Source: Maribellus maritimus
GTDB lineage: Bacteria; Bacteroidota; Bacteroidia; Bacteroidales; Prolixibacteraceae
DNA length: 64,000 nt
Direction of reading: 5' to 3'
Assembly: GCF_022267315.1 (NCBI RefSeq)
Contig: NZ_JAIKLE010000016.1
Location: 62,001 to 126,000, forward strand
Position numbers and translations under genes: made by a program. Under the pieces are notes generated by a model. That model made no database searches. It was not told where the DNA came from and saw only the letters and a list, made by a program, of their open reading frames with translations. Within the stretch, counting starts at the first letter, position 1. The number at the start of each line of letters is the position of its first letter. This document shows, piece by piece, positions 30,643-48,947 of the stretch.

Positions 30643-31902
30643 TTAACGTCGAACTTTAACTTCCTTTGCTTCAACCACTTTAAATAATTTATCGGAACGT
30701 CGTAATTTGGTATCAACAAATACGGAAATACGCTGACCTTTCATCCCTTCCTCTACAGAAAGCAAATTATATCTGATTTCCTTTACAACAGTTTGCACAA
30801 CTCCGGTTGTCGGGCCTGTCACAATTATCTCATCACCTACTCTTAAATTATTTGTTTCAAGTTTGAATTCTGCTACCTGTATATTAGTAAAGTAATTTGT
30901 ACACTTACCTAGGTACAGTTTTCGTTTTGTAGCCTGAGAGCCATAGTTGGCACTCCATTCACCAAGGCGCTGGCCAAGATAGTATCCGTCCCAGAATCCC
31001 CGGTTAAAAACCATGCCAAGGCGCCGGTTCCAATCCTCGACCTTTTCTTCAGTAAATTCGTTCTTTTGCCACGCCTCAACTGCTTCGTGATAACACTCAA
31101 CTGTTGTTTTTACATATTCGGGAGAACGCGCACGCCCCTCAATTTTTAATACTGAAACACCCGCATCAAGAATTTTATTCAAAAAATGAATGGTCTTCAA
31201 ATCTTTGGGAGACATAATATACTCATTGTCAATCTCCAATTCTGCGCCGGTTTCCCTGTCTGTTACGGTGTATGCCCTTCTGCAGGTTTGCAAACACGAG
31301 CCACGATTTGCAGAAGAATTCATCTCATGCAAACTGAGATAACATTTTCCGCTAATAGCCATACAAAGTGCTCCGTGTACAAACATCTCCAAACGAACAA
31401 GTTCTCCTCCCGGGCCTTTTATTTGCTCTTCTTCAATTTGTTTGTTTATCTCCCAAACCCTGCCTATGTTCATTTCACGCGCCAAGACAACTACATCTGC
31501 GAAATGGGCGTAAAACTTCACTGCTTCAATATTGGTAATGTTCACCTGTGTAGAGATGTGTACCTCCAAATGAATTGACCGCGCATACTGAATTACTGAA
31601 ATATCGGCTGCGATAACAGCAGAGACTCCGGCATTTTTTGCGGCGTCAAGCACTTCATGCATCTGCTGAACTTCGCCATCAAAAATTTCAACATTTAGCG
31701 TTAAATAGGTTTTTACACCGTTTTCTGATGCTGTTTTAACAATTCTATTTAGGTCATCGAGAGTAAAATTATTGGCTGAACGTGAGCGCATATTTAGATG
31801 CTCCACGCCAAAATAAACGGACCCTGCTCCTCCCTGAATGGCTGCCATAAGCGATTCATACGAACCAACCGGAGCCATTATCTCAACTCTTCCTTTATCC
31901 AT
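30643..31902 (-). CDS. U32 family peptidase-like protein (TrhP/RlhA type)
   Basis: 419 residues. The N-terminal TIM-barrel strand (VEIMAPVGSYESLMAAIQGG) is typical. The U32 signature is MFVHGALCMAISGKCYLS with the following Cys pair GSCLQTCRR, which can hold an iron-sulfur cluster. The C-terminal beta-barrel part includes KLETNNLRVGDEIIVTGPTTG. Despite the name, characterised relatives act in RNA modification (TrhP in tRNA-U34 hydroxylation, RlhA in 23S rRNA). I expect the same here without knowing which RNA. A TAACTTTG promoter box lies 20 bases upstream. Confidence 0.92.
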   Translation of the reverse strand: MDKGRVEIMAPVGSYESLMAAIQGGAGSVYFGVEHLNMRSRSANNFTLDDLNRIVKTASENGVKTYLTLNVEIFDGEVQQMHEVLDAAKNAGVSAVIAADISVIQYARSIHLEVHISTQVNITNIEAVKFYAHFADVVVLAREMNIGRVWEINKQIEEEQIKGPGGELVRLEMFVHGALCMAISGKCYLSLHEMNSSANRGSCLQTCRRAYTVTDRETGAELEIDNEYIMSPKDLKTIHFLNKILDAGVSVLKIEGRARSPEYVKTTVECYHEAVEAWQKNEFTEEKVEDWNRRLGMVFNRGFWDGYYLGQRLGEWSANYGSQATKRKLYLGKCTNYFTNIQVAEFKLETNNLRVGDEIIVTGPTTGVVQTVVKEIRYNLLSVEEGMKGQRISVFVDTKLRRSDKLFKVVEAKEVKVRR

Positions 31903-32069: not shown

Positions 32070-32786
32070 CTAAACAAACCTCTCCCGCTTTTGCAAATTA
32101 AAAAGGCCGTATAAAATAAATACAATTATCCCGACACCAAGAAAAATTCTGTTTTTTGATATTAACCCCTGCCAAATTACTTCGTTCAAATTGTCGGGTA
32201 TTTGAAAAGGATTTAAAAATACATTCCACTGTGTTCTTTCAATTACGTCCTGAAGTATTAGCAAGGCCACCCCTATTATTACCATCACAACGGCAGTTCC
32301 GTTTCCGTTTTTTATTAAAGTAGAAAACATAAAAGAAAGTGCACCCATAAATACAATCGGGTACATGAGCTGGTAGGCCATTTCAAAAATACTAATGTCG
32401 TATAAAAGCACAGACGCCAAAGCGGCAAAAAAGTATATAATGATAAAAATAAGACTAAAGATCATAAGTAGTCTTACCAGCCATACTTTATACCTGTAGT
32501 TTGGAATTCCAAACAATATTTCCAGCATTCGTGAATCATCATCATTCTGAATTCCAAAGACCGTCGGGTAAAAAATCAACAAGATTCCGGGAAATATCAG
32601 AAGTTGAAAAATGGTTCCTTCGCTAATACTTGCCCTATTTATAACTGTTTGGATGGCAAAAAACAGAAACACAGCCAATGCAGCTATCAAAAACCATATA
32701 AACTTATTGGCAAAAATTATTCTCAGATTATACCGAATCATCTTAATAAATATGATCAGTCGGTTTCTAATATTTAAGTTTTTCAT
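32070..32786 (-). CDS. Small ABC-2-type permease
   Basis: 238 residues with six likely membrane helices (for example FIWFLIAALAVFLFFAI, LLIFPGILLIFYPTVFGI, ALLILQDVIERT then VGIIVFILYGLF). There is a short soluble segment (NDDDSRMLEILFG) of the type seen in ABC-2 permeases. It has no ATPase. The nearest one is the C-terminal domain of the giant fusion encoded 12 bases upstream, which I infer is its partner. It is the last gene of the export operon, followed by a long-loop inverted repeat. Confidence 0.8.
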   Translation of the reverse strand: MKNLNIRNRLIIFIKMIRYNLRIIFANKFIWFLIAALAVFLFFAIQTVINRASISEGTIFQLLIFPGILLIFYPTVFGIQNDDDSRMLEILFGIPNYRYKVWLVRLLMIFSLIFIIIYFFAALASVLLYDISIFEMAYQLMYPIVFMGALSFMFSTLIKNGNGTAVVMVIIGVALLILQDVIERTQWNVFLNPFQIPDNLNEVIWQGLISKNRIFLGVGIIVFILYGLFNLQKRERFV

Positions 32787-32798
32787 TTGCTTTCAGTT

Positions 32799-35700
32799 TT
32801 AAACGAAATCTTTTAGTAAGCACAAGTAAGCATCTTCAAGATGCGGAGGCACGTTTACTGCATTTTCCGCTGGTTTTTCTTTTGCGAGGCAGCGAACTTT
32901 TATATTCTCACCGTCGCGCATGTGGTGAACAATCATTTGTTTATTTGCAAAACTGTCGAACTCTTTTGCCGGAATAGAAAAATGCCATACGAAGTTGTCT
33001 CCCATTTTAACCATATCGTTAGGCGTACCAAAGTATTTGAGATTTCCCCTGTTGATTACCGCTACCTGGTTACAGGAACTTGAAATATCTTCAATAATAT
33101 GTGTTGAGAAGATTACAATCCTTTCCCTGCTTAACTCAACAAGCAGGTTACGGAATCGTATTCTTTCCCTTGGGTCAAGACCTGCGGTAGGTTCATCAAC
33201 AACAAGAATCCGAGGCAGGTTTAGAAGAATTTGAGCTATACCAATTCTTTGTTTCATCCCACCGGAGAACGAGCCTATTTTATCGTCTTTTCTCTCAAAC
33301 ATGTGAACACTCTTCAGCACATACTCCAGACGCTCGTTTCTTATCTCCGTATCTTTGATTCCTTTCAAAATCGCCTGGTAATCCAAAAAGTCCCATGCAG
33401 ACATATTTTCGTAAGTACCAAAAGCCTGTGGCAAGTACCCAATTAAGCCCTGCAATTCTTCCCTGTATTTCTGGGTATCCATTCCGTTGATCCATATCTT
33501 ACCATAACTTTGTTCCAGGATGCCACAAACAATCCTCATCATGGTTGACTTACCGGCACCATTCGGACCGAGTAGCCCGAACATTCCGGTTTTTATTTCA
33601 AGCGATACACCATTTAACGCCCTGAACGGTTTTTTCCTTTTTCCAATTATTGGTATTTGCCGCACAATCGTAAAGAATCCTCTTCGTAAACCAGCCATAC
33701 GCCCGCTAATCCTGGCAATGTTGAGGTTTTTCTTTTGAATGTATTCTCCTGAGGTATATATTACTAGTAACAATAGCCAAATTATAGCCACAAAAATTAC
33801 CATTCCCAGATTATCCCACCGTTTAAAGAAAATAAACAAAAACAATAATGGAGTAAGCCAGTAAATAAGATTTTTAACGATTCGGTTTATTTTAAGATAT
33901 ACAGGTTTTGATGTAGATTCATATTTATTAATCATCACCTGGTTAAAAGGGACGTATAATAAAAACGAATAAAAGAAAACAACATGCGACATAACCCACA
34001 TCCACAAATTATTTTCCATATAAATAAAGGTGAAATAAACCAGGAAAATAAATAAGGGGAGCTGCCAAATGAGGTCATAAAAATCTCTTATGTGTTTATA
34101 ATCCTTCGTCAATCCGGCACGCTCACGAATTTTTTCACCCGATTTCCATTCACGAACAAACCTGTTGTCCCGATCATAGATCTTAACCAATCTCCTAATT
34201 CTAATCGTTATCGCTTCTTGCTCATCAATCACTTTTGAGCTGGCCTGACGTAAGCTTGTCATAACAAAAGCAGTAATACCCGGAACTGCTATTATCAGTA
34301 TCATAAAATCGAGTAACTGCCAAATAAAAGTATCAACTTCCAGATATATATATATTGAGCCAACAATAAATACAATCAGTTGTCCTATTTTTAGAGGCCA
34401 ACTCAATGAGTTTATCCAGTCGATTGCATTCTCTAGACCTGCATATAAAGTCGGGATAAATATAAGTGTGAGTATTGTACTAAACGCCAAGCCTCCAATC
34501 ACAGTAATTGCAAACGGAGCTCCAATAGCACCCACATATTCTGCCTGTCCCATTGCCAAAGGAAACATGGCAACGATTGTTGTAATGGCAGTAATCAAAA
34601 TCGGTCGCACACGAGAGAGGCCGGCTGTCATTAAAGCGCGAGACTTGCGATAACCTCTTTTACGAAGTATATTGGTATAATCAATTAATATAATACCGTT
34701 GTTTACAACTACACCAAGCAAAATAAGAAAACCCATTAATGTATTGGCGTTAAATAAACTGTTCCCGGTAAATATCAATGCAAGGAATGAACCAATAGCC
34801 GCCAGAGGAACGGAAAACATTAAGACAAATGGAGTTGAAAGCGACTCAAATACAGAAGCCAGAATCATCAAAATCAGGATAAATGCAGCCGCAATAAGGA
34901 AATAGAACTCTGAATATTGGTCCTCCTCATGAACGACTTCTACTGCCACCCCCGAAGGCAGTTTGTACGACTCAACGATTTGATCAATTTCAAGACGGTA
35001 AGCTTCCAAAAGGTCTTTTGATTGTTCTGCCTCTTCAACAAACTGGTAGCTTACTTCAATCTGTTTTTCCTGATTTACACGTGTAATCCTCGACATACCT
35101 TCATCGTAAATCAATTCTGCCAGATCCTGCAAATCATAAGTTGCACCTTCTGAATTACTTATTTGCAACATTCGCAAATCGTCAATCCCTTTATCCGTTT
35201 CCTCTTCCTCTTCTCCTTCATCAAGCTTTTCCTTAATAACAATTTCATACTCCTCAGTTCCCTGTTTAAATGTGGCACCCGATGTAAATTCGCGCGAAAA
35301 TGTTGAAAGTTCCGAAGTGATATTTCCTAAGTTAATTCCATAGTCGGTTAGAAGTAACTGGTTAAAATGCAAGTGAATTTCAGGTTGGTTACTGGAAACA
35401 CTTAACCTTACATTTCGTATCGATTCCAAATCCTCGATATAATATTCCAGGTCTTCTGCTACACCTTTCATTATATCGAAATCTTCTCCTTTTATAATGA
35501 TTTGTTCCTGATTTGAGCCAATTCCTAAAAAGCGGCTAAAATTTTCGGTTCCACCACCGCCCATTCCACCACCTCCGCCGCGAAAGCTTGAACTGGATGT
35601 AGGTGCTGTTAAACTAATTTCTCCCTGTGATATATTATCAAACCGATCTTCGACATCGGACTTGATTTCAGCAACTGTACGATCGGCAATATCCTTATAA

Positions 35701-37523
35701 TCCTCTTTTAAAACAATGGTTAATACTGCCTCATCTTCTTCAATTCTTGAACTGACATCTTGTTTTTCCTCCAGGTCTTCCAACCGGCTTTCTATTTCCT
35801 TAACAACTAAATCTGTCTTTTCGAGTGTTGAGCCTGTCGGCATAGTTACATACACCGAGAATTCTGTCTCCTCTACTTCCTGAAGGTTACTAACGCTAAT
35901 TGCCAAAACGGTAAATACTGTTATAAAGAAAACCACAATCGCACCAATTACTGTGCCTGCGGGTTTTCTCATACTCGACTTCAGTAAAAGAATATAAATT
36001 TGAATAATCCGGTTATTTGTTGTAACCTTTTCATAAAAAATATTGTGAGACGATTTTCCTCTCAGTAAGACGTGCGCTGCCATTGGAATAAGAAGTAACG
36101 CAACAAACAGAGAAACCATTAAAGTTGAGATAATAGAAACGCCAACGTGATTTCCAAGCAATTGAATCATGTAATCGGTTGAAAATACAAAGGGTAAAAA
36201 TACGGTTACCGTTGTTAATGTTGCAGCAACAATTGATCTCCAAACCTCTTGGGTTCCCTGAACTACTGCTGTATCCGCATCGTAACGTTTCCCGGAAAGC
36301 CTGTAGATATTTTCCAGCACTACAACACTGTTGTCCAGCAACATCCCTATAGCCAGAACCAGTCCAACCAATGTCAAACTGTTTAGCGAAATATTAAAGG
36401 CATAGAAAAGATTAAATGCTGTAAAAACTGAAATGGGTATTGCAAGAGCAATAAAAGAAACAATTTTCAGATTTTTCAGAAACATCCACAACACAAAAAT
36501 GGCTAAAAGACCTCCCACCAGTGCCAGGTTCATTATCTGGTTGATGTTGTCTTCCATTGTTTCGGCGGTGTTGGTTTGCACAACAATCTCAACATCCTTA
36601 ACGGCAAGCTCGTTATTTAAACGCTGAATTTCTTTCTGCACAGCATGAGAAAGGTCGATAAGATTGGCCTGGGAATCGGAGACCAGAATCATCGAAACGG
36701 CATCCAAACCGTTTACCCTGCTTATCGTTTCTTCTTCTTTTACACCAAAATAAATATCGGCAACATCTTTAAGGAAAATTGGCCCGTCGGCAACAACAAT
36801 ATTTTCAATATCCGAAACATTGTCATATTCAGCGGTTACATGTACAAAATATTGTTTTTGCGAATCATGTAAATAGCCGGCAAAAGTCCGTGCTGTTGAA
36901 CTCTCTGAAATAGCTCGTTGAATTTGAGAAGGAGTAATATCGTATGCCTCACAAGCTCCGGCATCGTATGTAACTTCAATGGATTTCTCCTTTCCGCCAT
37001 AAACGGTAACGGAAGCGATTCCATCTATATTTTCCATTTCCGCCGTTATCTCCTCATCAACAATATTTCGAATTCGGTCAGTACCACCACTCCCCCGGAT
37101 TTGTATTTCCATAAACTGGTTGGTAAGCGACTCCAAATCAACCCTGTTTACGTTTACTATAAAATTCTCATCCAGATTATCAGTAACCTGCTGGATCTTT
37201 TCCTGTAGTTTCAAAAAAGTGTACTTAAAATTTACATTTTGTTTGAAATTTACCTGGATAGACGCCGTTCGGTTGTTTAAGGAGGATTCCATGCTCTCGA
37301 TACCTTCCATTGTCCCAATTGCCCCTTCAATTGGGATTACTGCCTGGTTTTCCATATAATTCGGATCAACCTCCACCCTTGAATTAATGGATACAAACAG
37401 CATAGGGAGTTCGGCATTTGGCATTAACTCCACCTCAAGCCGCTGATAAGAGACATACCCCAAAAGAGTAAGTCCGGTAAACAGCATGGTGATGAATATT
37501 TTTCTGCTTATGATGAATTTCAT
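32799..37523 (-). CDS. RND transporter fused to an ABC ATPase (1574 residues)
   Basis: One open frame. Residues 1 to ~1040 form a complete RND pump: TM1 FIISRKIFITMLF; porter domains; TM4 motif GMLLDNSVVVLENI, where the usual Asp-Asp pair is Asp-Asn; second-half motif LGVVVNNGIILIDY. Residues ~1040-1300 add about six membrane helices (VFIVGSIYIYLEV, LPLFIFLVYFTFIYM, LLFLFIFFKRW). Residues ~1300-1574 form an ABC ATPase: Walker A GPNGAGKST (~1320), signature FSGGMKQR (~1419), Walker B ILVVDEPTAGLD (~1442) and the His switch STHI. The ATPase is a paralogue of the one at 46743-47636. A frame break or stop between parts is not seen. I infer a hybrid exporter; the mechanism is unknown. Confidence 0.9.
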   Translation of the reverse strand: MKFIISRKIFITMLFTGLTLLGYVSYQRLEVELMPNAELPMLFVSINSRVEVDPNYMENQAVIPIEGAIGTMEGIESMESSLNNRTASIQVNFKQNVNFKYTFLKLQEKIQQVTDNLDENFIVNVNRVDLESLTNQFMEIQIRGSGGTDRIRNIVDEEITAEMENIDGIASVTVYGGKEKSIEVTYDAGACEAYDITPSQIQRAISESSTARTFAGYLHDSQKQYFVHVTAEYDNVSDIENIVVADGPIFLKDVADIYFGVKEEETISRVNGLDAVSMILVSDSQANLIDLSHAVQKEIQRLNNELAVKDVEIVVQTNTAETMEDNINQIMNLALVGGLLAIFVLWMFLKNLKIVSFIALAIPISVFTAFNLFYAFNISLNSLTLVGLVLAIGMLLDNSVVVLENIYRLSGKRYDADTAVVQGTQEVWRSIVAATLTTVTVFLPFVFSTDYMIQLLGNHVGVSIISTLMVSLFVALLLIPMAAHVLLRGKSSHNIFYEKVTTNNRIIQIYILLLKSSMRKPAGTVIGAIVVFFITVFTVLAISVSNLQEVEETEFSVYVTMPTGSTLEKTDLVVKEIESRLEDLEEKQDVSSRIEEDEAVLTIVLKEDYKDIADRTVAEIKSDVEDRFDNISQGEISLTAPTSSSSFRGGGGGMGGGGTENFSRFLGIGSNQEQIIIKGEDFDIMKGVAEDLEYYIEDLESIRNVRLSVSSNQPEIHLHFNQLLLTDYGINLGNITSELSTFSREFTSGATFKQGTEEYEIVIKEKLDEGEEEEETDKGIDDLRMLQISNSEGATYDLQDLAELIYDEGMSRITRVNQEKQIEVSYQFVEEAEQSKDLLEAYRLEIDQIVESYKLPSGVAVEVVHEEDQYSEFYFLIAAAFILILMILASVFESLSTPFVLMFSVPLAAIGSFLALIFTGNSLFNANTLMGFLILLGVVVNNGIILIDYTNILRKRGYRKSRALMTAGLSRVRPILITAITTIVAMFPLAMGQAEYVGAIGAPFAITVIGGLAFSTILTLIFIPTLYAGLENAIDWINSLSWPLKIGQLIVFIVGSIYIYLEVDTFIWQLLDFMILIIAVPGITAFVMTSLRQASSKVIDEQEAITIRIRRLVKIYDRDNRFVREWKSGEKIRERAGLTKDYKHIRDFYDLIWQLPLFIFLVYFTFIYMENNLWMWVMSHVVFFYSFLLYVPFNQVMINKYESTSKPVYLKINRIVKNLIYWLTPLLFLFIFFKRWDNLGMVIFVAIIWLLLLVIYTSGEYIQKKNLNIARISGRMAGLRRGFFTIVRQIPIIGKRKKPFRALNGVSLEIKTGMFGLLGPNGAGKSTMMRIVCGILEQSYGKIWINGMDTQKYREELQGLIGYLPQAFGTYENMSAWDFLDYQAILKGIKDTEIRNERLEYVLKSVHMFERKDDKIGSFSGGMKQRIGIAQILLNLPRILVVDEPTAGLDPRERIRFRNLLVELSRERIVIFSTHIIEDISSSCNQVAVINRGNLKYFGTPNDMVKMGDNFVWHFSIPAKEFDSFANKQMIVHHMRDGENIKVRCLAKEKPAENAVNVPPHLEDAYLCLLKDFV

Positions 37524-37638: not shown

Positions 37639-40600
37639 TTAAACTTGCTCAACCGCAGTCTCTTTTTTATTTGTGAACAATCCCTTAAATCTGTCTAATA
37701 CGTCGTACACACAAGGAATAACAACTAATGTTAACAGGGTTGATGTAACCAAACCTCCGATAACAGCCATTGCCATTGGAGACCTGAGTGAAGCACTCTC
37801 TCCAAAACCTATGGTAAGCGGTAGCAATGCCAGGATTGTAGTCAAACTGGTCATAATAATCGGTCGGATTCGTTGCTGGCCGGCCAATAAAATTGCATCC
37901 TTTCGGGTTACACCTTCGCGTATTAACTGGTTAATGCGATCAACCAAAATAATAGAATCGTTTACAGCAATACCTACCAGCATAATCACACCAATTATGG
38001 CCATTATATTCAGGGTTTTCCCTAATAAAAAGAATGTGATTATACTTCCTACCACCGCCAGCGGAATTGTTAATAAAATAGTAAACGGGTGAATAAGTGA
38101 TTCAAACTGTGAAGCCATTACCATATATACCAATATGATTGATAGCAACAGGGCGAAACCAAGGTTTGCCATCGAATCCTGACGTTTTTCCTCTTCACCT
38201 GTTACTAAAATCCTGTAATTCTGTGGCAGCTCAATTAAAGAAGTAGCCTCGCGAATTTGATTGGCCACATGGTCAAGGGCAACTCCCTTTTCCATTTGCG
38301 CAGTAACTTTTCCTATCCTGTTTTGATTTCTCCTAAAAATCTCTTTGGGAGAAACACCGTAAGAAATTTCGGCAATTTCATTCAAGCGGAACACCTGAGC
38401 TCCGGAGGTAATGGTCAATTCATCAATTTCATTCAATCCTTTTTCAGGAATTTTAATGGTTATATCCTGCATTTCGCCTTCTTTTTCCAGCTCTCCGGCA
38501 TTCATTCCTTCAAGTTGTTCCTGAAGCTGACTAATTACTGAACTTATATCAACTCCATACATTCCGGCTCGTACCCTGTCAACTTTAATTTCAACTTCGG
38601 GAGCGCCATTCTCTATGGAAGACTGAACATTAAACAAGCCAGACATTCCTGTCATCCTTTCTTTAACCTGAGCCACAATAGCTTCAATTTCTTCCATCTC
38701 TTCTCCTCTGACTTCAACAACCACAGGAGCTTCATCGGTTCCAAGAATAGACTTCAATGCGCTTTCTTCTTGTGTGAATGTAGCTTCAAGTCCTTCAACA
38801 CCAGATAAAAGTTTATCAAGAGTTTCAATTACAGTCTCTGAAGTAACTGTTGATTCTTCTTTCAAAATCACCTTAATTTCAGCTGTATTTTCGCCCTGGA
38901 AGACGGAAGTCTGATCGCTGGCTATCCCACTGGAAGGGCCTGCATGAGAATATATATTATCTAAATTCTCGCCCAAATACTCTGTAAGAATGTTTTCAAT
39001 ATTTTTTACCGTCGATTCAGTCCTGCTTAACTCTGTTCCCTCCTGAAGTTTTAAATCAACTGTAAATTCGCGGGTTTCGGTTTTGGGCATAAATTCTGTA
39101 CCAATCATTGGAACAAGAAATACTGAACCTGCTACCAAAGCAGTTGCCAAAATAATAACCAACCACTTGGCTTTTAATATTTTTTCCAGAAAACGGCCAT
39201 AACCACCAACCCTAACAGACTTTTGTTTCACAGGCATTTTTTTGTTTTTATAAAACCTGTGATACATCATAGGGATTAAAAAGATGGCAACAAAAAGTGA
39301 AGATATAAGAGAAAAAGCCACCGTCCATGCCTGGTCTTTAAACAATTCACCTGAAGCGCCGTGTAAATAAACAATTGGAAGGAATACTACGATTGTAGTA
39401 ATTGTTGAAGCGGTAATTGCCCCTCCAACCTGTGAAGTCCCAATTATTGCTGATTCCTTGGCGCTTAATCCGTTTTCATGGTTTCGAAATATATTTTCCA
39501 TTACCACAATTGCATTATCCACAAGCATACCAGCTCCGAGCGCCAATCCCCCCAAAGTCATTATATTAATAGTGAGGTGATTGAAATACATCAAATTAAA
39601 TGTTGCAATTATTGATATTGGAATTGCAACACTAACAATCAATGTAGTGCCAAACCGGCGAAGGAAAATAAAAAGAATAACGACCGCCAGTAAAATACCA
39701 AGTAAAGCTGATTCTTCAACTTCGCCAATAGCCTGGCTAATAAATCGTCCCTGGTTGGTTACCTGGGTTAATTGATAGCCGGGCAGCGCTCTTTCAATAT
39801 CTTCCAGTGATTCATTGATTTGTTCTACCGCTTTAACTGTATTGTATTTTGTTTCTTTATAAACGGCAAGACCAATACAACGCTCACCATTTATGTGAAC
39901 AATATTCTCAGGTTCTTTATTTCCAAAAGATACAGTTGCAACGTCTTTGAGGAAAACAGGAGCCATGGAAACAGTTGTTTCGCCATCGGCAACTTCGCGA
40001 ACTGCTTTATATCCAACAATTAAATTTTCGAAGTCTTCAGTGCTCTGAAGCATACTAACTCCCTTAACAATGTATTGCATTCCCATCTCACTAATGCTCC
40101 CTCCGGAAACACTGGTATTGAAACTTTGGATGCGGGTGCTTATTTCAGCCATGGTCAGTTCCTGGGCTTCCAAACGGTAAGGATCGGTTTGGATTATTAC
40201 TTCGGCTTCCTCCTGCCCTGAAAGTTCAACCTCGGCAACACCTTCCAACCGAACCAGTTCGTTACGGATATAATTTTCGGCGGCTTTTCGCAACTCATTC
40301 ATATCTTTTATTTCAGAATGAGTTAAACCAATAATCATTACCGGAGAAGTATTTGGATCGTGTTGGGTTATCGTCAGCTCGTCGATTTCTGAATTCTGGG
40401 TGAGCGTATTTAAAGCTTTTTGCAAATCGAGAAAGGCTTCATCCATGTCTTTATTCCAGTCATACTCTACGGTTATTTGAGCAGAACCCACTTTCGAAAC
40501 AGAAGTAACCTGAATAACGTCTGACTGGCGAATGGCCAGTGCTTCGATATCTTCCACAAACTGCTTTTCCATTTCTTCCGGGGGGCGCTCTCCGGACTGG

Positions 40601-40749
40601 ACTTCGACAAAAATCCGCGGAGAATTTAAGTCGGGGAACAAGTCAACACCCAGCTTATCAAACGAGATGTATCCAAGGAGAACAACTCCCAGAACGACCA
40701 TCAGTATTGTAACCGGGTAATTGACAGAAAATTCGGTTAATTTCTTCAT
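37639..40749 (-). CDS. RND efflux pump inner-membrane subunit (HAE1/AcrB-like)
   Basis: 1036 residues, full length for an RND pump. It exchanges cations for substrate and passes the substrate through an adaptor to TolC. TM1 is VTILMVVLGVVLLGYISF, TM4 carries GMLVDNAIVVMENI (Asp-Asn instead of Asp-Asp), and the second-half motif is VGIAVNDSIILVDRI. Large porter loops lie between TM1-2 and TM7-8. The C-terminus ends in a short charged tail. The adaptor and TolC genes immediately upstream complete the tripartite pump. The substrate is unknown; both multidrug and envelope-lipid roles are possible. Confidence 0.95.
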   Translation of the reverse strand: MKKLTEFSVNYPVTILMVVLGVVLLGYISFDKLGVDLFPDLNSPRIFVEVQSGERPPEEMEKQFVEDIEALAIRQSDVIQVTSVSKVGSAQITVEYDWNKDMDEAFLDLQKALNTLTQNSEIDELTITQHDPNTSPVMIIGLTHSEIKDMNELRKAAENYIRNELVRLEGVAEVELSGQEEAEVIIQTDPYRLEAQELTMAEISTRIQSFNTSVSGGSISEMGMQYIVKGVSMLQSTEDFENLIVGYKAVREVADGETTVSMAPVFLKDVATVSFGNKEPENIVHINGERCIGLAVYKETKYNTVKAVEQINESLEDIERALPGYQLTQVTNQGRFISQAIGEVEESALLGILLAVVILFIFLRRFGTTLIVSVAIPISIIATFNLMYFNHLTINIMTLGGLALGAGMLVDNAIVVMENIFRNHENGLSAKESAIIGTSQVGGAITASTITTIVVFLPIVYLHGASGELFKDQAWTVAFSLISSLFVAIFLIPMMYHRFYKNKKMPVKQKSVRVGGYGRFLEKILKAKWLVIILATALVAGSVFLVPMIGTEFMPKTETREFTVDLKLQEGTELSRTESTVKNIENILTEYLGENLDNIYSHAGPSSGIASDQTSVFQGENTAEIKVILKEESTVTSETVIETLDKLLSGVEGLEATFTQEESALKSILGTDEAPVVVEVRGEEMEEIEAIVAQVKERMTGMSGLFNVQSSIENGAPEVEIKVDRVRAGMYGVDISSVISQLQEQLEGMNAGELEKEGEMQDITIKIPEKGLNEIDELTITSGAQVFRLNEIAEISYGVSPKEIFRRNQNRIGKVTAQMEKGVALDHVANQIREATSLIELPQNYRILVTGEEEKRQDSMANLGFALLLSIILVYMVMASQFESLIHPFTILLTIPLAVVGSIITFFLLGKTLNIMAIIGVIMLVGIAVNDSIILVDRINQLIREGVTRKDAILLAGQQRIRPIIMTSLTTILALLPLTIGFGESASLRSPMAMAVIGGLVTSTLLTLVVIPCVYDVLDRFKGLFTNKKETAVEQV

Positions 40750-40781: not shown

Positions 40782-41840
40782 CTAAAGTATAACTTTTACT
40801 TTCGAACGATCGCGCAATGTTTCATACCCGTCAATGATCAACCTGTCGTTAACACTTAAACCTTCCAGTACCTCAACCGACTCCTGATTTTGAAGACCAA
40901 TGGTTAACCACCTATCCTCGGCAGTGCTGTTACGCCCTACAACAAAAACATATTTTCCCCGGTTGCCGGTCATAATAATTTCTTTTGGAATGACTATGGT
41001 ACTATCCTTTTGTGCGGTAATAATATCAGCCTTAACAAACATACCCGGACGCAACTTTAATTCTGGATTGTCAATTTCAAGAACACCTTTGAATGTTCTT
41101 GTTTCTGTACTGATAATGGGTGAAAGTTCGGATATGTGTCCGATCAATGTATCTTCACTAATTGTATAATTGGTAATTAAAGCTTCCTGCCCAATTTTAA
41201 CATCTGAAATATTTTTTTCAGGAAGATTTATTTCGAGATACATCTTGTTGTAACTCATCAAACTAACTACTTCTGTTCCTGATGGAACCAATGTTCCTGC
41301 AGTATAATACGGAAGATCAACGATAACTCCGCTAAAAGGCGCAACTACATTCATTTTGGCCAGTTGCAACTGGGCATTTTCGTAATTGTATTGGGCGGTG
41401 GTTTTTGATACTTCGGAATTGCGAAGTTCATAAAGCGTTACACCACCTTTTTCATACAGTGATTTTTGTTTGTTGTATTCATCCTCTGAAATTTCGAGAT
41501 TTAATTTCGCTGATTCTATAGCCACACTGTTTTCATACTCTTTATCTTCCAGACGCACAATTACCTGACCTTCTTTAACCCTATCACCAAGTTTAAAAGG
41601 TCTTCCTGTTTGCGGATTTGTCATTACACGATATTTTCCGCTCATTTCGGAACTTAGGGTTGTTTCTGATTTTGCGTTTGCTGTTCCGGTAGTGTTTATA
41701 AATTGCATGATACCTCCGAGCTTAACATTCTCTACCGACACTGGTGATGCCAATTCAGTATCAGCATTTTGTGATTGATTGTTACAGGAAATTATCACTG
41801 CGACAATTCCCAACATGAATAGTAATTTTATATTTTTCAT
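40782..41840 (-). CDS. Periplasmic adaptor lipoprotein (membrane fusion protein)
   Basis: 352 residues. The signal ends in a lipobox with Cys19 (VIISCNNQS), so the adaptor is lipid-anchored, most likely to the inner membrane. The barrel-sandwich halves are visible around GKYRVMTNPQTGRPFKLGDRVKEGQVIVRLED and MNVVAPFSGVIVDLP. They are separated by a helical hairpin (LNLEISEDEYNKQKSLYEKGG). A beta-barrel domain follows (GMFVKADIITAQ). It joins the RND pump to the outer-membrane factor encoded next to it. Spacing to both neighbours is 21-32 bases, in one operon. Confidence 0.95.
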   Translation of the reverse strand: MKNIKLLFMLGIVAVIISCNNQSQNADTELASPVSVENVKLGGIMQFINTTGTANAKSETTLSSEMSGKYRVMTNPQTGRPFKLGDRVKEGQVIVRLEDKEYENSVAIESAKLNLEISEDEYNKQKSLYEKGGVTLYELRNSEVSKTTAQYNYENAQLQLAKMNVVAPFSGVIVDLPYYTAGTLVPSGTEVVSLMSYNKMYLEINLPEKNISDVKIGQEALITNYTISEDTLIGHISELSPIISTETRTFKGVLEIDNPELKLRPGMFVKADIITAQKDSTIVIPKEIIMTGNRGKYVFVVGRNSTAEDRWLTIGLQNQESVEVLEGLSVNDRLIIDGYETLRDRSKVKVIL

Positions 41841-41861: not shown

Positions 41862-43343
41862 TTATTTTTCTTCATTTATATATAACTCGGTTGGTATAAT
41901 TGCCTGATTTGTTTGAAAATCATACAAGCTCTGTATTTTAAGATTCAAAAGTTCGATTTTGTAATTTATTAAAGCTTGAGCGTAAGCCACCTTCATTTCA
42001 GAAAGCTGTTGCTGATAGAGATTTAAATCCATACCCGTCAGGTCGCCGTTTTCATAACGTTCCTGGTTAATCTCGTATGTTAACTGTGCATTTGTTTCGT
42101 TTTGCCTGGCAATATCAATCTGGTTTAGCTGATTTTGTATATTACGATAAGCCTGTCGTATACCAATGATAATTTCATTTTTCTGATCTTCGTAATTCAA
42201 CTGTTCAGATTGAATAGCTGCTTCCTGAGCCTGAATTCTTGCCTTTCTTTCCCCCCAGTCGAAAAGTGGAATACTAAAAGAAAGCGCTACTGAAGGACTC
42301 TTTGTTGGATTATCGTACACCTGAGTAAGATTTCCGTTATCGCCGGTTATTCCATATCTTACGTTTAACGAGCCCTCAAATTCATTTAACGCTTTTGTTT
42401 CAATCATGGCAAACTGGCTTGTTTCAATATCGATTTCACGTTGCCTGAGTTCCATTCTTGAAGCCAAACCATTATCAATCGCCTTCTCGAGATCAACACT
42501 AACAGGATTTGCTTCAACATCAGCAAAAACCAGTATATCTGTGTATAAATCCATACCCAAGTATAATTTCAACTGGTCTTTTGCATTTTCAAATGATACT
42601 TCAGCATCCTGAACTGAAGATTTTGACTGGGCTAAGTTTAATTCGGCTTGGTACAACTCTTCTTTAGCTGCCAATCCCGCATCAACTTTATTTTTTATAA
42701 TATTGTAGCTGGTTTGTGTATTCTCCTGTTCATCTCTGGCAATGTCGAGATTCATTTGAGACAAATAAACATTGTAGAAGAATTGCGTTACACTCCTTTC
42801 CAGGTTCAACCTTTGCATGGCGTAACTGATATTTGCATTCTCCAGATTCAATTCCAGCTCTTTTAACTGAAGTTTCAACCGGTTATATGTGAACAGAGGT
42901 TGATTAAAATTTAAATATAAATTATTATAAAAAACTTTACTTTCCGAGTTATTCGCATCAGATAAACTTTTCTGCCAGCCAAACTCATTATTTAAAGAGA
43001 TTGTTCCATCTGTAAAAAGAATGGGTTGTGCTACACGAAACAAACTACTGGTTTGCAAATTCTCGTTAGTGTACCATTCTGAAACCCTGCTATCGAACAT
43101 CCTGCTTCTGCTGAAATTAAGTGGCTCAACATCTAAAGAAAACCTGGACTTTAAAGCTGCTCGCTGTGCTTCAAGGTTTTTCTGGAAGCGGGTAAGATTA
43201 AGCAACGATTGTTTAATATCGGGACTTTCCGTTTCTGCATACTGCAACGCTTTGTCAAGTGTTAAAGCCTCCTGTGCTCTTAGTTCTATAAAACTAAAAA
43301 CCAATAAAAGCCCCAAGATTGCAAGATTGTGTAATACTTTCAT
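41862..43343 (-). CDS. TolC-family outer-membrane factor
   Basis: 493 residues, normal for TolC relatives. A signal peptide (ILGLLLVFSFIELRA) is followed by QEALTLDKALQYA, the classic start of an outer-membrane factor. There are two long helical-hairpin repeats (LELNLENANISYAMQRLNLE..., and IRQAYRNIQNQLNQIDIARQNE). The barrel strands FSRSRMF..., LYLNFNQPLF and VALSFSIPLFDWGERKA mark the outer-membrane part. It provides the exit duct for the RND pump and possibly for the ABC modules of the same operon. Confidence 0.95.
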   Translation of the reverse strand: MKVLHNLAILGLLLVFSFIELRAQEALTLDKALQYAETESPDIKQSLLNLTRFQKNLEAQRAALKSRFSLDVEPLNFSRSRMFDSRVSEWYTNENLQTSSLFRVAQPILFTDGTISLNNEFGWQKSLSDANNSESKVFYNNLYLNFNQPLFTYNRLKLQLKELELNLENANISYAMQRLNLERSVTQFFYNVYLSQMNLDIARDEQENTQTSYNIIKNKVDAGLAAKEELYQAELNLAQSKSSVQDAEVSFENAKDQLKLYLGMDLYTDILVFADVEANPVSVDLEKAIDNGLASRMELRQREIDIETSQFAMIETKALNEFEGSLNVRYGITGDNGNLTQVYDNPTKSPSVALSFSIPLFDWGERKARIQAQEAAIQSEQLNYEDQKNEIIIGIRQAYRNIQNQLNQIDIARQNETNAQLTYEINQERYENGDLTGMDLNLYQQQLSEMKVAYAQALINYKIELLNLKIQSLYDFQTNQAIIPTELYINEEK

Positions 43344-43376: not shown

Positions 43377-46300
43377 CTAAAGCTCAACTATTTTTACGGC
43401 ATCAGCAAAAACAACTCTTCCTTGTGACTTGTTGGAAAGTTCAACCAGTGCAGTATCCGAGGTAAAATAAAATGCCCCAAGGTGATTCCATCCTTCATCG
43501 GCATTTTGGATACTTAAGGATTGTTCTTCCGGGCCTTCATCAGAATGTATTGTAAAATGATACTCTCCCTGCTCTCTATCTCTTCCTCCCGGCCCCCTTC
43601 TAAAACCTCTTGATTTATAAAGATAATAATACACATCATAATATCCGGGCTTTTTAACAGGCACATGCCATTTGGCCATTTGAGATCCATCGCCACTTTT
43701 TATATAATATCCGGAACGAACATAAGTACCGTAAAAATCTGTATTGGTAATCGCCGTCCAGGTTGTTGGCGGGCGCCAGCTATTCATTCCCTGGTATTTT
43801 GATCCTCCTTCATCTTCATTGATTATCCATTTTTCCAAAAGACTAACCTTCTTATTACTTGTTACCTCAAATTGCGGGTCTTCGTTATCCACAACAGTTT
43901 CGTTAGGCAATGAAGTTTGTACCGGAAGCTCGGTTAGCAATTCACCTTCAAAAGGAATGGCTTTCAAATCTTCTTCAACATCGCGAAATCCTTCGGTAAT
44001 TACCTGTGGAATATTCTTCGAGGTCATCGTATTAATCATAATCATTCGTGGTTCCGAATTTAACAGATAACTTATCTCTTTTGTCTGGTGTGGCTCAAGA
44101 TAGATAAGCTTATTGATTAAATCGTCGCCTCCGGGCGGACCAAAGCCTGGTCCACCACCTCCTAAGCGGAAAATCACTTTAATAAGTCCCTCTGTATCAG
44201 AAAAATTTGTTGTTTTAAACTTAATCATCGTCCGCATCATTTCTCCTGATTTTACTTTAACTGCAGTAATCGGAGAAATTAAAAAGCCGGGAAGTGCTTT
44301 GGCTTTAAACCAATCGTCCATTATAGGTATCAACTCTATTCCAAATTCATTTTTAATTCTTTGGTCAAAATCTTCAAACGAAATATTTTTAAACCGATAT
44401 TCTTTGAGAACATTTTGCAGGAAAGTTGCAAATTCTTCCATACCGGCTTCATATTGAATTTTCGAGAAAAGAGCATCTCCCTTTAATTTTATCACATTAT
44501 CAATTATAGCCTTTTGGTTCACATCAGCTAAAATTTCTTCAAATGTACTGTCCTGCAATGCGATGTTGGCTTTTTCGTCTTCACTGATTCCAGACATATC
44601 GCGCATAAATACCGACCTCATATCCACTTCCTGGTTTTTAAGATAAGCTTCAAATACTCGGTTGGTAATGGGCCAAGTGTCTGATTGGATATTATTTTGG
44701 AAGTTGTAAAAAAGTGGGAAAGCAAAATAGGGACTTGCAGTTGTAATTACTGTTCCTCCTCCCGGGCCACCTCTAAAATCAGTCTGTTCTTCTTCGGTAA
44801 ATGCTCTTAGAAACTGCCCCAATACGCGCATTTGTATATCCTCCGGGGTTTGCGAACCTCCACGGCCACGATTCCCCCAACGTTCCATCCTTTTTTTTGA
44901 GCCTTCAAAATCTGCTTCGCGTAACATAAAACCTTTTTCAGGCATTAGTATCTGTTCGGGTTGTACATATTCCTGGCAGGAAGTCCAGGAGCGCGGATAC
45001 GTTTTGAATTGAGCAGGTGCTTCAACCAAAGCCAGTCTTTCAAAAGCGTATTCAAGATTATATGTTCTTTCAAAGTCCTCAAGTTGCTCGTTAATTAAAC
45101 TTGGAATCGTATCCTTAATTTCATTAAATGCTTCAGAAAAGTATTTATGCCCTTCCATCAACCAAACTCCATATTCTAAACTATCGGTTTCCATTTTCAA
45201 GTACTCATAATTTCCGATAGCAAGAGAAAGCTGGGTTAAAGGATGTTCATTTTCAAAAGTGAACTGTCCGGCAGCAACTTCATTAATTTTTCCTTGTGAG
45301 ATTGCTTGTAAACCGGGAGTTGTGGTAACCTTTAAATTATAATTTACAAACTGATTATGATTCCAGCTCACATCTTCCGAGCTGTATGTTACACCAGTTC
45401 CAGGATACCAATTCGCTTCGGGTGTTAACAAAACATACTGTGGAGTGAGAAAAGCATATCTCTTATCTACATTTATTACAAATTTTCCATATTTCTCCTG
45501 AATGGTTTCTTCATCAATATCGAGATAACAAAGCGCTTCATTAATCTTCCCTGAATATTTAAATTCTATTTCAGCTTCCTCACCGGGTTGAAGATTTACA
45601 TTTTCCGAAATAAAAATCAGATGTTTTTCACGAGTGAAAGATGTTTCTTTTCCTGTTAATTTAATACTTTCAATTCTTAAGCCACTGTTCAAATTAAAAA
45701 TCAATTTGTTTAAAGGAACATTGTTTTCATTCTTTAACGTTATGTCCGATAAAACATCAATGATTTCTCCCTCGTGTTTTAAATCAATGGTATTGGATAA
45801 AATAACCGGAATCTTCTCTTTCACGTACTGGTTATTGAGTTCAACTACCTCTGTTCGAAATCTTTCAGTTTGCTTAAACTCATCAACATGTCTGTAAGCA
45901 AGATAACCACCTACTCCGATAAAAAGTACGCTGAAAATCAGTGAAATATATGTCATGGCTTCGGACTGAGGAAGTCTCTTTAACAAAAAGATTGTCAGGA
46001 AAATAAAACCAATTCCAAGAAAAAAGTATATCCCCCTGTGATTAAGTATAACATTGATATTGCCAAAACCAACGATATCCGAATTTAACATCGGGATATT
46101 ATATGCCATGTAATCAAAAAGGTAATAGTATTTTGCCTGAAGCAGGAACAAAGTTATTCCAATGTACCCCAGAATCAAAACAAAAGTAATTGCCTGGTTA
46201 CGAATGACACTCATCAAAAGAAAAGATAAGCCCATTATAAAAAGAAGCGTTGGAACACTTACCGCAACGAGATAAAATCCATAAGAAATCCAGCTTATCG

Positions 46301-46721
46301 AAGTTTCCTGGGCCAACAAATTAAAAATGAGGGCCATGCCAATAACCACTATATTTAAAACCAAAAATACCTGGAGGTTTCCCCATGTTTTTCCGATAAC
46401 ATATTCACTGTTGGTCATCGAGCGCATATAAATTACCTCGGTGGTATCCAGTTTTTTATCACGTTTTAAAAAATCGGAAGCCAGAAAAACAGCAATTACC
46501 GCCTGCGCAACATTCAGAATTAGCAAGTTAAAATAAGGGATTGCACTTGGAATACTTCGAATGGCCCATCCGTCGCCGCCACCACCTTCTATTACCATAC
46601 CGAAATTTATTCCAAATAACACCAAAAGTGATAAAATACTAAAGATTCTGAAGAACCAGCTTCGGAGCAATGTTTTACGCTCGTATTTGGCAATTGAAAA
46701 TATATTGTGTAATGAAATCAT
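43377..46721 (-). CDS. ABC-2 permease fused to inactive M1-like and golvesin-like domains
   Basis: 1114 residues. The first ~280 form an ABC-2-type permease with about seven membrane helices (LLVLFGINFGMV, VAQAVIAVFLAS, LFIMGLSFLLMSVI). Residues ~300-850 are M1-aminopeptidase-like (beta domain with LTPEANWYPGTGVTY; LALVEAPAQFKTYP; VQPEQILMPEKG). No HExxH zinc motif is present, so peptidase activity is unlikely. The last ~150 residues (TDFYGTYVRSGYYI, WHVPVKKPGYYDVYYYLY, GRVVFADAVKIVEL) match the golvesin/xanthan-lyase C-terminal binding domain. Gly/Arg-rich loops separate the parts. The ATPase encoded upstream is its natural partner. ABC-2/M1 fusions are known in Bacteroidota; the golvesin addition is less usual. 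Confidence 0.82.
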   Translation of the reverse strand: MISLHNIFSIAKYERKTLLRSWFFRIFSILSLLVLFGINFGMVIEGGGGDGWAIRSIPSAIPYFNLLILNVAQAVIAVFLASDFLKRDKKLDTTEVIYMRSMTNSEYVIGKTWGNLQVFLVLNIVVIGMALIFNLLAQETSISWISYGFYLVAVSVPTLLFIMGLSFLLMSVIRNQAITFVLILGYIGITLFLLQAKYYYLFDYMAYNIPMLNSDIVGFGNINVILNHRGIYFFLGIGFIFLTIFLLKRLPQSEAMTYISLIFSVLFIGVGGYLAYRHVDEFKQTERFRTEVVELNNQYVKEKIPVILSNTIDLKHEGEIIDVLSDITLKNENNVPLNKLIFNLNSGLRIESIKLTGKETSFTREKHLIFISENVNLQPGEEAEIEFKYSGKINEALCYLDIDEETIQEKYGKFVINVDKRYAFLTPQYVLLTPEANWYPGTGVTYSSEDVSWNHNQFVNYNLKVTTTPGLQAISQGKINEVAAGQFTFENEHPLTQLSLAIGNYEYLKMETDSLEYGVWLMEGHKYFSEAFNEIKDTIPSLINEQLEDFERTYNLEYAFERLALVEAPAQFKTYPRSWTSCQEYVQPEQILMPEKGFMLREADFEGSKKRMERWGNRGRGGSQTPEDIQMRVLGQFLRAFTEEEQTDFRGGPGGGTVITTASPYFAFPLFYNFQNNIQSDTWPITNRVFEAYLKNQEVDMRSVFMRDMSGISEDEKANIALQDSTFEEILADVNQKAIIDNVIKLKGDALFSKIQYEAGMEEFATFLQNVLKEYRFKNISFEDFDQRIKNEFGIELIPIMDDWFKAKALPGFLISPITAVKVKSGEMMRTMIKFKTTNFSDTEGLIKVIFRLGGGGPGFGPPGGDDLINKLIYLEPHQTKEISYLLNSEPRMIMINTMTSKNIPQVITEGFRDVEEDLKAIPFEGELLTELPVQTSLPNETVVDNEDPQFEVTSNKKVSLLEKWIINEDEGGSKYQGMNSWRPPTTWTAITNTDFYGTYVRSGYYIKSGDGSQMAKWHVPVKKPGYYDVYYYLYKSRGFRRGPGGRDREQGEYHFTIHSDEGPEEQSLSIQNADEGWNHLGAFYFTSDTALVELSNKSQGRVVFADAVKIVEL

Positions 46722-46742: not shown

Positions 46743-47636
46743 TTACGCATTAGACCACTGATTTAGTTTATTCTCCATAAAATGAACATAAGCATGCTCA
46801 AGATTAGGAGCAATTCTTTCACCTTTATAACCGTTAATATCTTCCGAAACAACCTGCACCTCCCATCCTGCAGCAACAGGAATAGTTGAAATCACCGGGT
46901 ATTTTTCATTAATTTCCATATACTCAGTTTCAGTGGCTTTGATGAGCCACACACTTCCTTCGGCTTCTTTTACAAGCTGTTCGGGTGAACCGGAAAAAGC
47001 AAGTTGCCCTCTGTTCAACAAAGCCATATTGTCGCAGGTACTTGAAATATCTCCTACAATGTGTGTTGACAAAATAATTACTACATCGCGTGTACTGATA
47101 TTTGAAAGCAGATTCCGGAAACGAATACGTTCTTCAGGGTCAAGACCGGTGGTCGGTTCATCAACGATAATAATTTTTGGATCGTTGATAAGCGCCTGAG
47201 CTATTCCAAGCCTCCTTTTCATACCTCCTGAAAGTTTATTGGCATTTCTGTCTCTGGCTTCGAACAGGCCCACTTCCTCTAACATCTGATCCACGGAATT
47301 TCTGCGAACCGAACCGTTTTTCATTCCAGCTAAACGGGCTGTATAATCTAAAAATTCATATGTTTTCAATTTGGAAAAAAAACTGAAGTCCTGCGGCAAA
47401 TATCCAAGCATCGAGCGAATTTCTCTTCTGTTCTTTGATAAATCATAACCATCGAAAGTAACTTTCCCGCTGCTCGGTTTCATTAATGTTACCAAAATAC
47501 GCATTAATGTTGATTTACCCGCACCGTTAGGGCCAAGCAAACCAAACATACCATTTGGGATTTCAAGATTCAGATTTTTTATGGCATAGTATCCGTTGGG
47601 ATAAACTTTGTTCAGATTTTCGATTTTTATATGCAC
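46743..47636 (-). CDS. ABC transporter ATP-binding protein
   Basis: 297 residues. Walker A is GPNGAGKST (about 37-45), the signature LSGGMKRR, Walker B IIIVDEPTTGLD, and the His switch STHI. The C-terminal tail APNLEHAYVHF resembles PPHLEDAYLCL at the end of the giant fusion. It is the first gene of the apparent operon and energises the ABC-2 permease encoded 21 bases downstream. Homology to the ATPase domain of the RND fusion is strong across the whole nucleotide-binding domain. Confidence 0.95.
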   Translation of the reverse strand: MHIKIENLNKVYPNGYYAIKNLNLEIPNGMFGLLGPNGAGKSTLMRILVTLMKPSSGKVTFDGYDLSKNRREIRSMLGYLPQDFSFFSKLKTYEFLDYTARLAGMKNGSVRRNSVDQMLEEVGLFEARDRNANKLSGGMKRRLGIAQALINDPKIIIVDEPTTGLDPEERIRFRNLLSNISTRDVVIILSTHIVGDISSTCDNMALLNRGQLAFSGSPEQLVKEAEGSVWLIKATETEYMEINEKYPVISTIPVAAGWEVQVVSEDINGYKGERIAPNLEHAYVHFMENKLNQWSNA

Positions 47637-48356: not shown

Positions 48357-48947
48357 TTATTTAACCAGACTAAACGCATATTCATCGCTTAATGAACTAA
48401 GAATAACAGTGTATTCTCCGGAATCCAGTTTTGAAAGATCGTAACCTGAACTAACGGCGAAGTTTTTTCCAAGTTTTGATTTGTAAACCAAATCGCCCTT
48501 ACTGTAAATAGAAAGATTCAAATTTTCTTTATCAAAATTCAGGTAAGAAAATTTCAAAACATTGTCTTTGTAATCAAAGTAAGGATCAAAGCTCAACTTT
48601 GAATCACCAACATTAATCCCCCTATGGGCAACTTCAATGTCTCTTGACAACTGAGTGTCATTCACTTTCAGATTAAGAACGTAACTTCCATCCTCCAGGT
48701 TTGCAAAGTCAAAAACTTTCTGATAATCGGTTAATGGCTTGTTTGATTCTTTATAATATACCATTGAACCATCTTCAGCTTCGATGCTCAGCTCAAAATA
48801 AGCTGCTTTTTCATTTGTAATTGCCACGATAGCTCTATCGGCTGTTAATGGAATTACATTCATTTTCGGTTTCTCAACTGCACCGGCAATTGCTGCAATT
48901 GCGAATGCTGTTACTGTAAATAATAATTTAATTGTTTTCATAACCAT
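48357..48947 (-). CDS. Exported DUF3244-like beta-sandwich protein
   Basis: 196 residues from the ATG at 48947; an ATG six bases further on (48941) gives MKTIKLL and is equally likely. The signal peptide ends near AIAGAVEKPKM. The mature part has two immunoglobulin-like repeats (RAIVAITNEKAAYFELSIE, GSYVLNLKVNDTQLSRDIEV, then FSYLNFDKENLNLSIYSKGDLVYKS). It resembles the small secreted DUF3244 or C-terminal-sorting-like beta sandwiches of Bacteroidota. A TATGTTTG promoter box and two palindromes lie just upstream. Function is unknown. Confidence 0.75.
   Translation of the reverse strand: MVMKTIKLLFTVTAFAIAAIAGAVEKPKMNVIPLTADRAIVAITNEKAAYFELSIEAEDGSMVYYKESNKPLTDYQKVFDFANLEDGSYVLNLKVNDTQLSRDIEVAHRGINVGDSKLSFDPYFDYKDNVLKFSYLNFDKENLNLSIYSKGDLVYKSKLGKNFAVSSGYDLSKLDSGEYTVILSSLSDEYAFSLVK

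Follow-up and report, generated by a model that had tools for sequence, protein, structure and literature searches.

The window, by which we mean the whole stretch of 64,000 nucleotides that was analysed, contains a cassette of seven genes on the minus strand, in the order NBD1, TMD1-M1, TolC, adaptor, RND1, RND2-NBD2 and TMD2. One of these genes joins an RND permease and an ABC ATPase in a single frame. The features are listed below in the order of transcription, the supporting evidence being given in brackets.

46743..47636, minus strand: NBD1, ABC ATPase of 297 aa, encoded at the start of the cassette (Pfam ABC_tran)
43377..46721, minus strand: TMD1, 1114 aa, ABC-2 permease with 7 hydrophobic segments, a degenerate M1-peptidase domain and a golvesin C-terminal domain (Pfam, hydropathy, hhalign)
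41862..43343, minus strand: TolC-type outer-membrane factor, 493 aa (Pfam OEP; syntenic)
40782..41840, minus strand: periplasmic adaptor of the MFP/HlyD type, 352 aa (Pfam HlyD_D23; RND_mfp of NCBIfam passes its cut-off)
37639..40749, minus strand: RND1, unfused RND permease, 1036 aa (Pfam ACR_tran, E 2e-221)
32799-37523, minus strand: fusion RND2-NBD2, a single 1574-codon ORF without stop, 1574 aa
34419..37523, minus strand: RND2, the RND permease portion of the fusion, residues 1-1035 (Pfam ACR_tran; solved RND pumps match, MdtB best)
34260..34379, minus strand: extra helices 13-14, residues 1049-1088 (hydropathy; helical in a low-confidence model)
34176..34208, minus strand: NBD2, first strand plus A-loop, TIRIRRLVKIY, residues 1106-1116 (alignment; beta1-site profile)
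33627..34175, minus strand: NBD2 insert, residues 1117-1299, with helices 15-18 at 1151-1257 (alignment; spacing compared with unfused ATPases)
32799..33626, minus strand: remainder of NBD2, residues 1300-1574, with Walker A GPNGAGKST at 1319-1327, and the stop codon (Pfam ABC_tran; motifs in 18 of 18)
32070..32786, minus strand: TMD2, probably a permease of the ABC-2/type V kind, 238 aa with 6 hydrophobic segments (Foldseek, weak; hhalign)

The two ends of the fused product were recovered by separate Pfam profiles. Residues 2-1028 matched ACR_tran (E 2e-166, profile positions 3-1018 of 1021), which represents a full-length RND match, and residues 1303-1447 matched ABC_tran (E 5e-27). Moreover, the Walker A, signature, Walker B and H-loop of NBD2 were all present in 18 of 18 aligned fusions, window included. 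The original prediction of a covalent RND-ABC fusion, carrying an ATPase with a full motif set, was thus borne out and the single-chain fusion is confirmed as real. Hydropathy analysis placed six segments past the RND part (1049-1067, 1070-1088, 1151-1169, 1173-1191, 1215-1233 and 1239-1257), in agreement with the predicted number of about six extra helices, but not with their predicted arrangement as one block ahead of the ATPase, as the first strand of NBD2 sits between the second and the third. The suggestion that these helices and the ATPase constitute an ABC half-transporter was rejected: the helices lie partly within the ATPase, with its first strand among them, in hhalign they did not resemble the ABC-2 domains used for comparison (0.1-0.4%), and the cassette has ABC-2 domains of its own, one of them clear and the other likely. 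What the prediction had overlooked was the seven-gene cassette, with its second ATPase and a second permease carrying a degenerate M1 domain, and the insertion within the ATPase.

To describe the distribution of the fusion, several genome samples were searched. Within a set of 61 genomes (E<=1e-60, with no more than 8 candidates scored in each), one uninterrupted frame spanning at least residues 3-1571 was found in at least 34, the genome of the window included. These comprised at least 32 of the 37 genomes of its own genus label (own included) and, among the 24 genomes that represent other families of the order, at least 2. In five more genomes (G022, G035, G047, G050 and G058) the fusion match was fragmented or cut, mostly at contig ends, and in 22 there was no fused match among the matches listed. 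A class-wide sample yielded the fusion in 5 of 345 genomes and a phylum-wide sample, which overlaps with the former, in 6 of 395, two of these outside the class; the own genome is included in both counts. Of the 20 loci in a second collection, 18 had an intact frame (1567-1603 codons), one had a broken frame (L057) and one an unfused ABC gene (L058), although this collection is not independent of the 61-genome search, as many loci evidently derive from the same genomes (equal identities and frame lengths). The record titles of the fusion loci name Draconibacterium, Maribellus, Mariniphaga, Puteibacter, Prolixibacteraceae and Bacteroidales. Given the recurrence in at least 34 of 61 genomes and in scattered families, with two genomes outside the class, the fusion reflects neither chance nor an assembly error; it is common in its own genus, patchy and rare elsewhere, and stable. 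A profile of the linker retrieved only long fused frames from 395 genomes, except for the seventh match (G683, E 9.7e-4, 63 positions, one stop), which was taken as chance.

Some individual records deserve mention. In one genome (G036) the full-length fusion is present twice, on separate contigs (C6 and C7); the two copies have diverged and are 77% and 80% identical to that of the window. The broken locus L057 stems from a metagenome assembly; both its RND1 and its NBD2 frame are interrupted, possibly through a fault in assembly or because the copy is decaying. At least 5000 plasmid records gave a match, one of them covering 80% of the query at a single location, and among the ten plasmid matches listed four had no listed gene or no annotation.

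The context of the fusion is equally constant. Among 35 loci examined, three (L058, L074 and L075) did not represent the cassette and in 32 of the 32 that did the gene order was identical, as far as each locus extends. Seven of these 32 reach NBD1, the others stop short of it, and an NBD1-like ATPase was found at a fitting distance in four further fused genomes (G167, G262, G377 and G380). When frames of at least 120 aa around the cassette were clustered for 20 loci, no further gene family occurred in more than six; the gene at 30643-31902 recurs downstream of the cassette in five of them, window included. Upstream of the cassette, the gene at 48357-48947 showed a weak match to the sorting tail of the Por secretion system. 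An anti-phage role was considered and rejected, as PADLOC returned nothing for the permeases and, for the NBDs, matches to the ATPase domain only.

An adaptor and a TolC-type channel adjoin the pump, the arrangement expected of a tripartite system. The two RND proteins are around 29% identical to each other. The best NCBIfam match of RND2 was RND_permease_2, at 434.5 bits, well below the cut-off of 1250. In AcrB the ion relay consists of two aspartates (DD) in TM4 and a lysine in TM10. RND2 has DN in TM4 (DT in one of 17 rows) and an Asn in place of the TM10 lysine. RND1 likewise lacks the second TM4 aspartate and has the TM10 Asn in those rows in which the motif was found, while the first TM4 aspartate is retained in both proteins. 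The same DN/NN combination occurs in another RND protein of the genome that has no ABC part (L008), and three others (L001, L002 and L006) have DD and the lysine. Considering that L008 shares the pattern and that the first aspartate is kept, the pattern is no sign of lost ion coupling. A search for a second RND-ABC fusion in the genome led to two other long RND frames, which on inspection turned out to be RND-TolC fusions and were rejected as such: L147:2847-7304 (plus strand, contig C121, 1486 aa) and L075:1886-6229 (minus strand, contig C123, 1448 aa), both with a C-terminal TolC-type efflux domain.

The ATPase of the fusion is unusual in its construction. The six extra helices divide into two plus four, and the last four fall within NBD2, between the first strand with the A-loop and the rest of the domain. 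In unfused ATPases the first strand and A-loop follow the pattern I-x-I-x-x-L-x-K-x-Y. The same pattern in the fusions precedes the last four helices, as I-x-I-x-N-L-V-K-I-Y in the divergent rows and without that Asn in the rows near the window. The distance between the A-loop Tyr and Walker A is 187-230 residues in the fusions and 23 in every one of the 46 unfused records (34 distinct sequences, five of which are NBD1s of the cassette). The inserted stretch of around 180 residues (167-210 aa in 18 of 18 fusions) is absent from the unfused relatives, so that the direct passage from N-terminal strand and A-loop to the Walker A region that characterizes an ABC ATPase is interrupted, by sequence, in 18 of 18 fusions. 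The longest insert, of 210 residues, occurs in L069 and includes an extra stretch rich in Asp, Ser and Ala; in the other 17 it measures 167-183 residues.

A profile was made of the 34 distinct unfused beta1 sites. It ranked the NBD2 strand site first in 15 of the 18 fusions; in the window it came second (8.3 versus 8.4 bits, with shuffled window sequence giving a mean of 6.3 and a maximum of 15.3 bits) and in two other fusions second and seventh. Averaged over the family alignment, the site scored 12.8 bits versus 2.4 for the next window, and it is this value, together with the constant spacing in the unfused ATPases, on which the insertion is based. The strand region is also better kept than its surroundings, with a mean identity to eight divergent homologues of 66% versus 33% for the insert and 39% for the stretch of helices 13-14. 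Given the strand pattern before the helices, the remainder of the ATPase after them and this difference in conservation, we read the insert as a membrane module of four helices nested inside NBD2. An AlphaFold model of residues 1030-1574, built from a 19-sequence alignment, was too poor to judge the insertion (pLDDT 57.8, pTM 0.32). The topology would fit: the RND part presumably ends on the cytoplasmic side, two helices return there and four more return again. In the same eight homologues NBD2 is 66-74% identical to that of the window, versus 52-59% for RND2 and 30-35% for the insert, which indicates that the ATPase is strongly constrained.

Both NBDs of the cassette have canonical motifs. 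They are 41% identical over 274 aa, with one gap and collinear to the end, and NBD1 is the closest paralogue of NBD2 within the genome (244 bits versus 140 for the next). Nevertheless, in a tree of 63 sequences with three paralogues as outgroup, NBD1 and NBD2 formed separate clades and NBD2 grouped with standalone ATPases (support 0.925). The split between them is therefore old, and a sister relationship by simple duplication is not supported by the tree. ATPases resembling NBD2 at E<=1e-55 were found in 89 of 340 genomes of the class. Among the matches listed, those at least 70% identical came from 5 of the 340 genomes, all fused and exclusively in frames of at least 1572 codons, and the others were 38-45% identical and encoded in frames of 288-407 codons. 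The best solved relatives of NBD2 are the lipid transporters ABCA4, ABCA1, ABCA7 and ABCA3 (172-154 bits; the next group 121).

The standalone relatives of NBD2 provided a reference for the permeases. In 13 of the 16 neighbourhoods of NBD2-like ATPases that were fetched there was a frame of at least 1197 codons nearby. Nine such permease frames were translated; they have 9-12 hydrophobic segments and an HExxH motif in nine of nine, and all three that were scanned in Pfam matched Peptidase_M1. A common two-gene system of Bacteroidota, consisting of an ABC ATPase and an ABC-2 permease fused to an HExxH M1 peptidase, is represented by loci L126-L141 and L148-L167; we found no description of it in the literature searched. 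A further 19 standalone permeases were picked by means of HExxH and hence left out of the motif count (L161 gave none), and TMD1 rows shorter than 1000 aa were kept out of the profiles. TMD1 itself matched Golvesin_C above, and ABC2_membrane_2 and Peptidase_M1 below, the Pfam cut-off. In hhalign comparisons it matched the second half of the standalone permeases at 98.6% and the first at 96.8%, and its M1-type domain matched the standalone M1 domain at 97.4%. Judged from these profiles, TMD1 is homologous to half of the ABC-2/M1-peptidase permease of Bacteroidota, although the assignment to a specific half is only relative, as the two halves are similar to one another (97.0%) and each is a match for TMD1. 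The HExxH motif is absent at the aligned place in eight of eight long copies (L064 has an HExxH elsewhere). The M1 domain is thus degenerate, and possibly serves as a binding scaffold for the exported substrate.

That TMD2 is the other half of such a permease is less sure. Its profile matched the first half of the standalone permeases at 89-90% and, where both halves were compared, at 89.4% versus 1.7% for the second; the controls (RND helices and linker) stayed at or below 3.6%. With single permeases the values were at most 14%, seven of nine being at or below 2.9%, the level that was also reached by unrelated permeases of the genome, and the TMD1 and TMD2 profiles did not match each other (0.2%). 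Neither a Pfam match above cut-off nor a PDB sequence match at E<=1 was obtained for TMD2. Its predicted fold (pLDDT 72.9) had PmtCD, NosDFY (NosY) and ABCG2 as top Foldseek matches, all weak (E 0.035-0.15) and none at E<=0.001. The original prediction that the product of 32070-32786 is the partner permease is therefore likely, considering that ABC-2/type V folds come out on top, yet the E-values are no better than 0.035.

Taken as a whole, the cassette may specify one export assembly, in which a heterodimeric type V ABC exporter is docked covalently, via NBD2, to a mixed RND1/RND2 tripartite pump; among the readings considered this is the most parsimonious and the most likely, with chances of about even. 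More explicitly, TMD1, TMD2, NBD1 and NBD2 would come together as one heterodimeric exporter of type V (ABC-2), and RND1 and RND2 as a mixed trimer that joins the adaptor and TolC. Since the RND2 chain includes NBD2, the ABC exporter would be docked permanently to the RND trimer, with the four NBD2 helices and the two before them holding the ATPase at the membrane beside the trimer, in place of a free linker. The substrate, probably amphipathic (a lipid, a peptide or a lipopeptide), would be flipped or extracted by the ABC unit and so reach the periplasmic face with the degenerate M1 domain, after which the ion gradient would drive the RND trimer to hand it on through the adaptor and TolC. MdtBC has the stoichiometry MdtB2C1. 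By analogy, one RND2 per trimer would imply one NBD2 and hence one ABC unit per pump.

The same components can be connected in other ways. ATP binding and hydrolysis by NBD2 could directly gate or power the cycle of the RND trimer. The ATPase is attached covalently to the transmembrane end of the RND part, its internal helices could transmit strokes laterally within the membrane, all 18 fusions have its complete motif set, and both RND proteins deviate from the AcrB relay in TM4 and TM10. Considering, however, that the first TM4 aspartate is kept, that L008 shows the same deviation without having an ABC part, and that the likely ABC-2 permeases of the cassette offer NBD2 an ordinary partner, we regard such direct coupling as unlikely. 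Equally doubtful is the broader notion of a dual-energy translocon, in which the cycles of the helix-bearing ATPase would be passed on to the RND trimer. A single pump across the envelope would then run on both ATP and the ion gradient, and each RND trimer would have exactly one ABC exporter. Alternatively, the ABC part could be a unit for mechanotransmission or sensing, for which FtsEX and MacB are precedents; the cycles of NBD1 and NBD2 would then move the periplasmic M1-like domain and so open or load the adaptor/TolC channel. The loss of HExxH, which makes the M1 domain look like a binding scaffold, and the presence of NosDFY among the top fold matches of TMD2 are in line with this, but the exporters PmtCD and ABCG2 are among the same matches, and we consider it a rather improbable reading. 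It is far less probable that two independent transporters are merely encoded together and that the fusion is a neutral accident of co-expression. Other RND gene fusions (RND-TolC) do occur in the genome, but the gene order is fixed, the close NBD2 matches listed are confined to the long frames, with the rest at 45% identity or less, and the linker profile points to the long fused frames as well. Finally, an artefact of assembly or frame, or a product that is always cut into two proteins, is hardly credible: nothing was found in favour of an artefact, the uninterrupted frame recurs in at least 34 of 61 genomes as well as in distant families, and a separate C-terminal ATPase beginning past the helices would be without its first strand.

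ABC and RND transporters are usually classed as two separate engines, and here a conserved single chain carries both. Lying in a cassette with a conserved order across Bacteroidota, this chain is a natural experiment on the question whether a single route of export can be driven by two sources of energy. It is also unusual for an ABC ATPase to be broken by membrane helices at the A-loop, which allows a direct test of the tolerance of the nucleotide site. Considering the RND-TolC fusions in the same genome, a fusion as such is not unique; the novelty seems to lie in a fusion across energy classes. No RND-ABC single-chain fusion, and no cassette of this kind, is described in the titles or abstract openings of the literature searched, a body that leaves most subscription journals and all preprints outside.

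Among known systems, the standalone pair of NBD and ABC-2/M1 permease shares the NBD family (38-45% identity) and the M1-type domain of TMD1. There, both halves and the HExxH domain are in one frame of 1183-1339 codons, with a single NBD gene beside it, whereas in the cassette the two halves seem to be separated, the M1 domain has degenerated, and there are two NBDs, one of which is fused to an RND permease. The type V ABC transporters PmtCD, NosDFY, ABCG2 and ABCA1/ABCA4 are similar in the fold of TMD2 (with weak E-values) and in the sequence of NBD2; we know of none that is joined to an RND permease. MacAB-TolC couples an ABC protein to an adaptor and TolC, as does the cassette, but it has no RND component. 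PMC8277102, a large review of tripartite pumps, describes the NBD of MacB as fused to the permease of MacB itself. The HAE-1 systems MdtABC-TolC and AcrAB-TolC are alike in the RND match over 1030 residues (MdtB being the best solved relative) and in having one adaptor and one TolC; they differ from the cassette, which adds six helices and an ABC ATPase to RND2 and includes NBD1, TMD1 and TMD2. The mdtBC genes lie side by side, and the cassette likewise has two adjacent RND genes. In PMC8277102, MdtBC is presented as a rare heterotrimer. SecA-SecYEG-SecDF resembles the proposed assembly in pairing an ATP-driven step with an ion-driven protein of the RND superfamily. It does so with separate proteins, for the export of protein and without TolC. 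That the ion-driven RND-superfamily protein aids the ATP-driven step is stated in PMC8277102.
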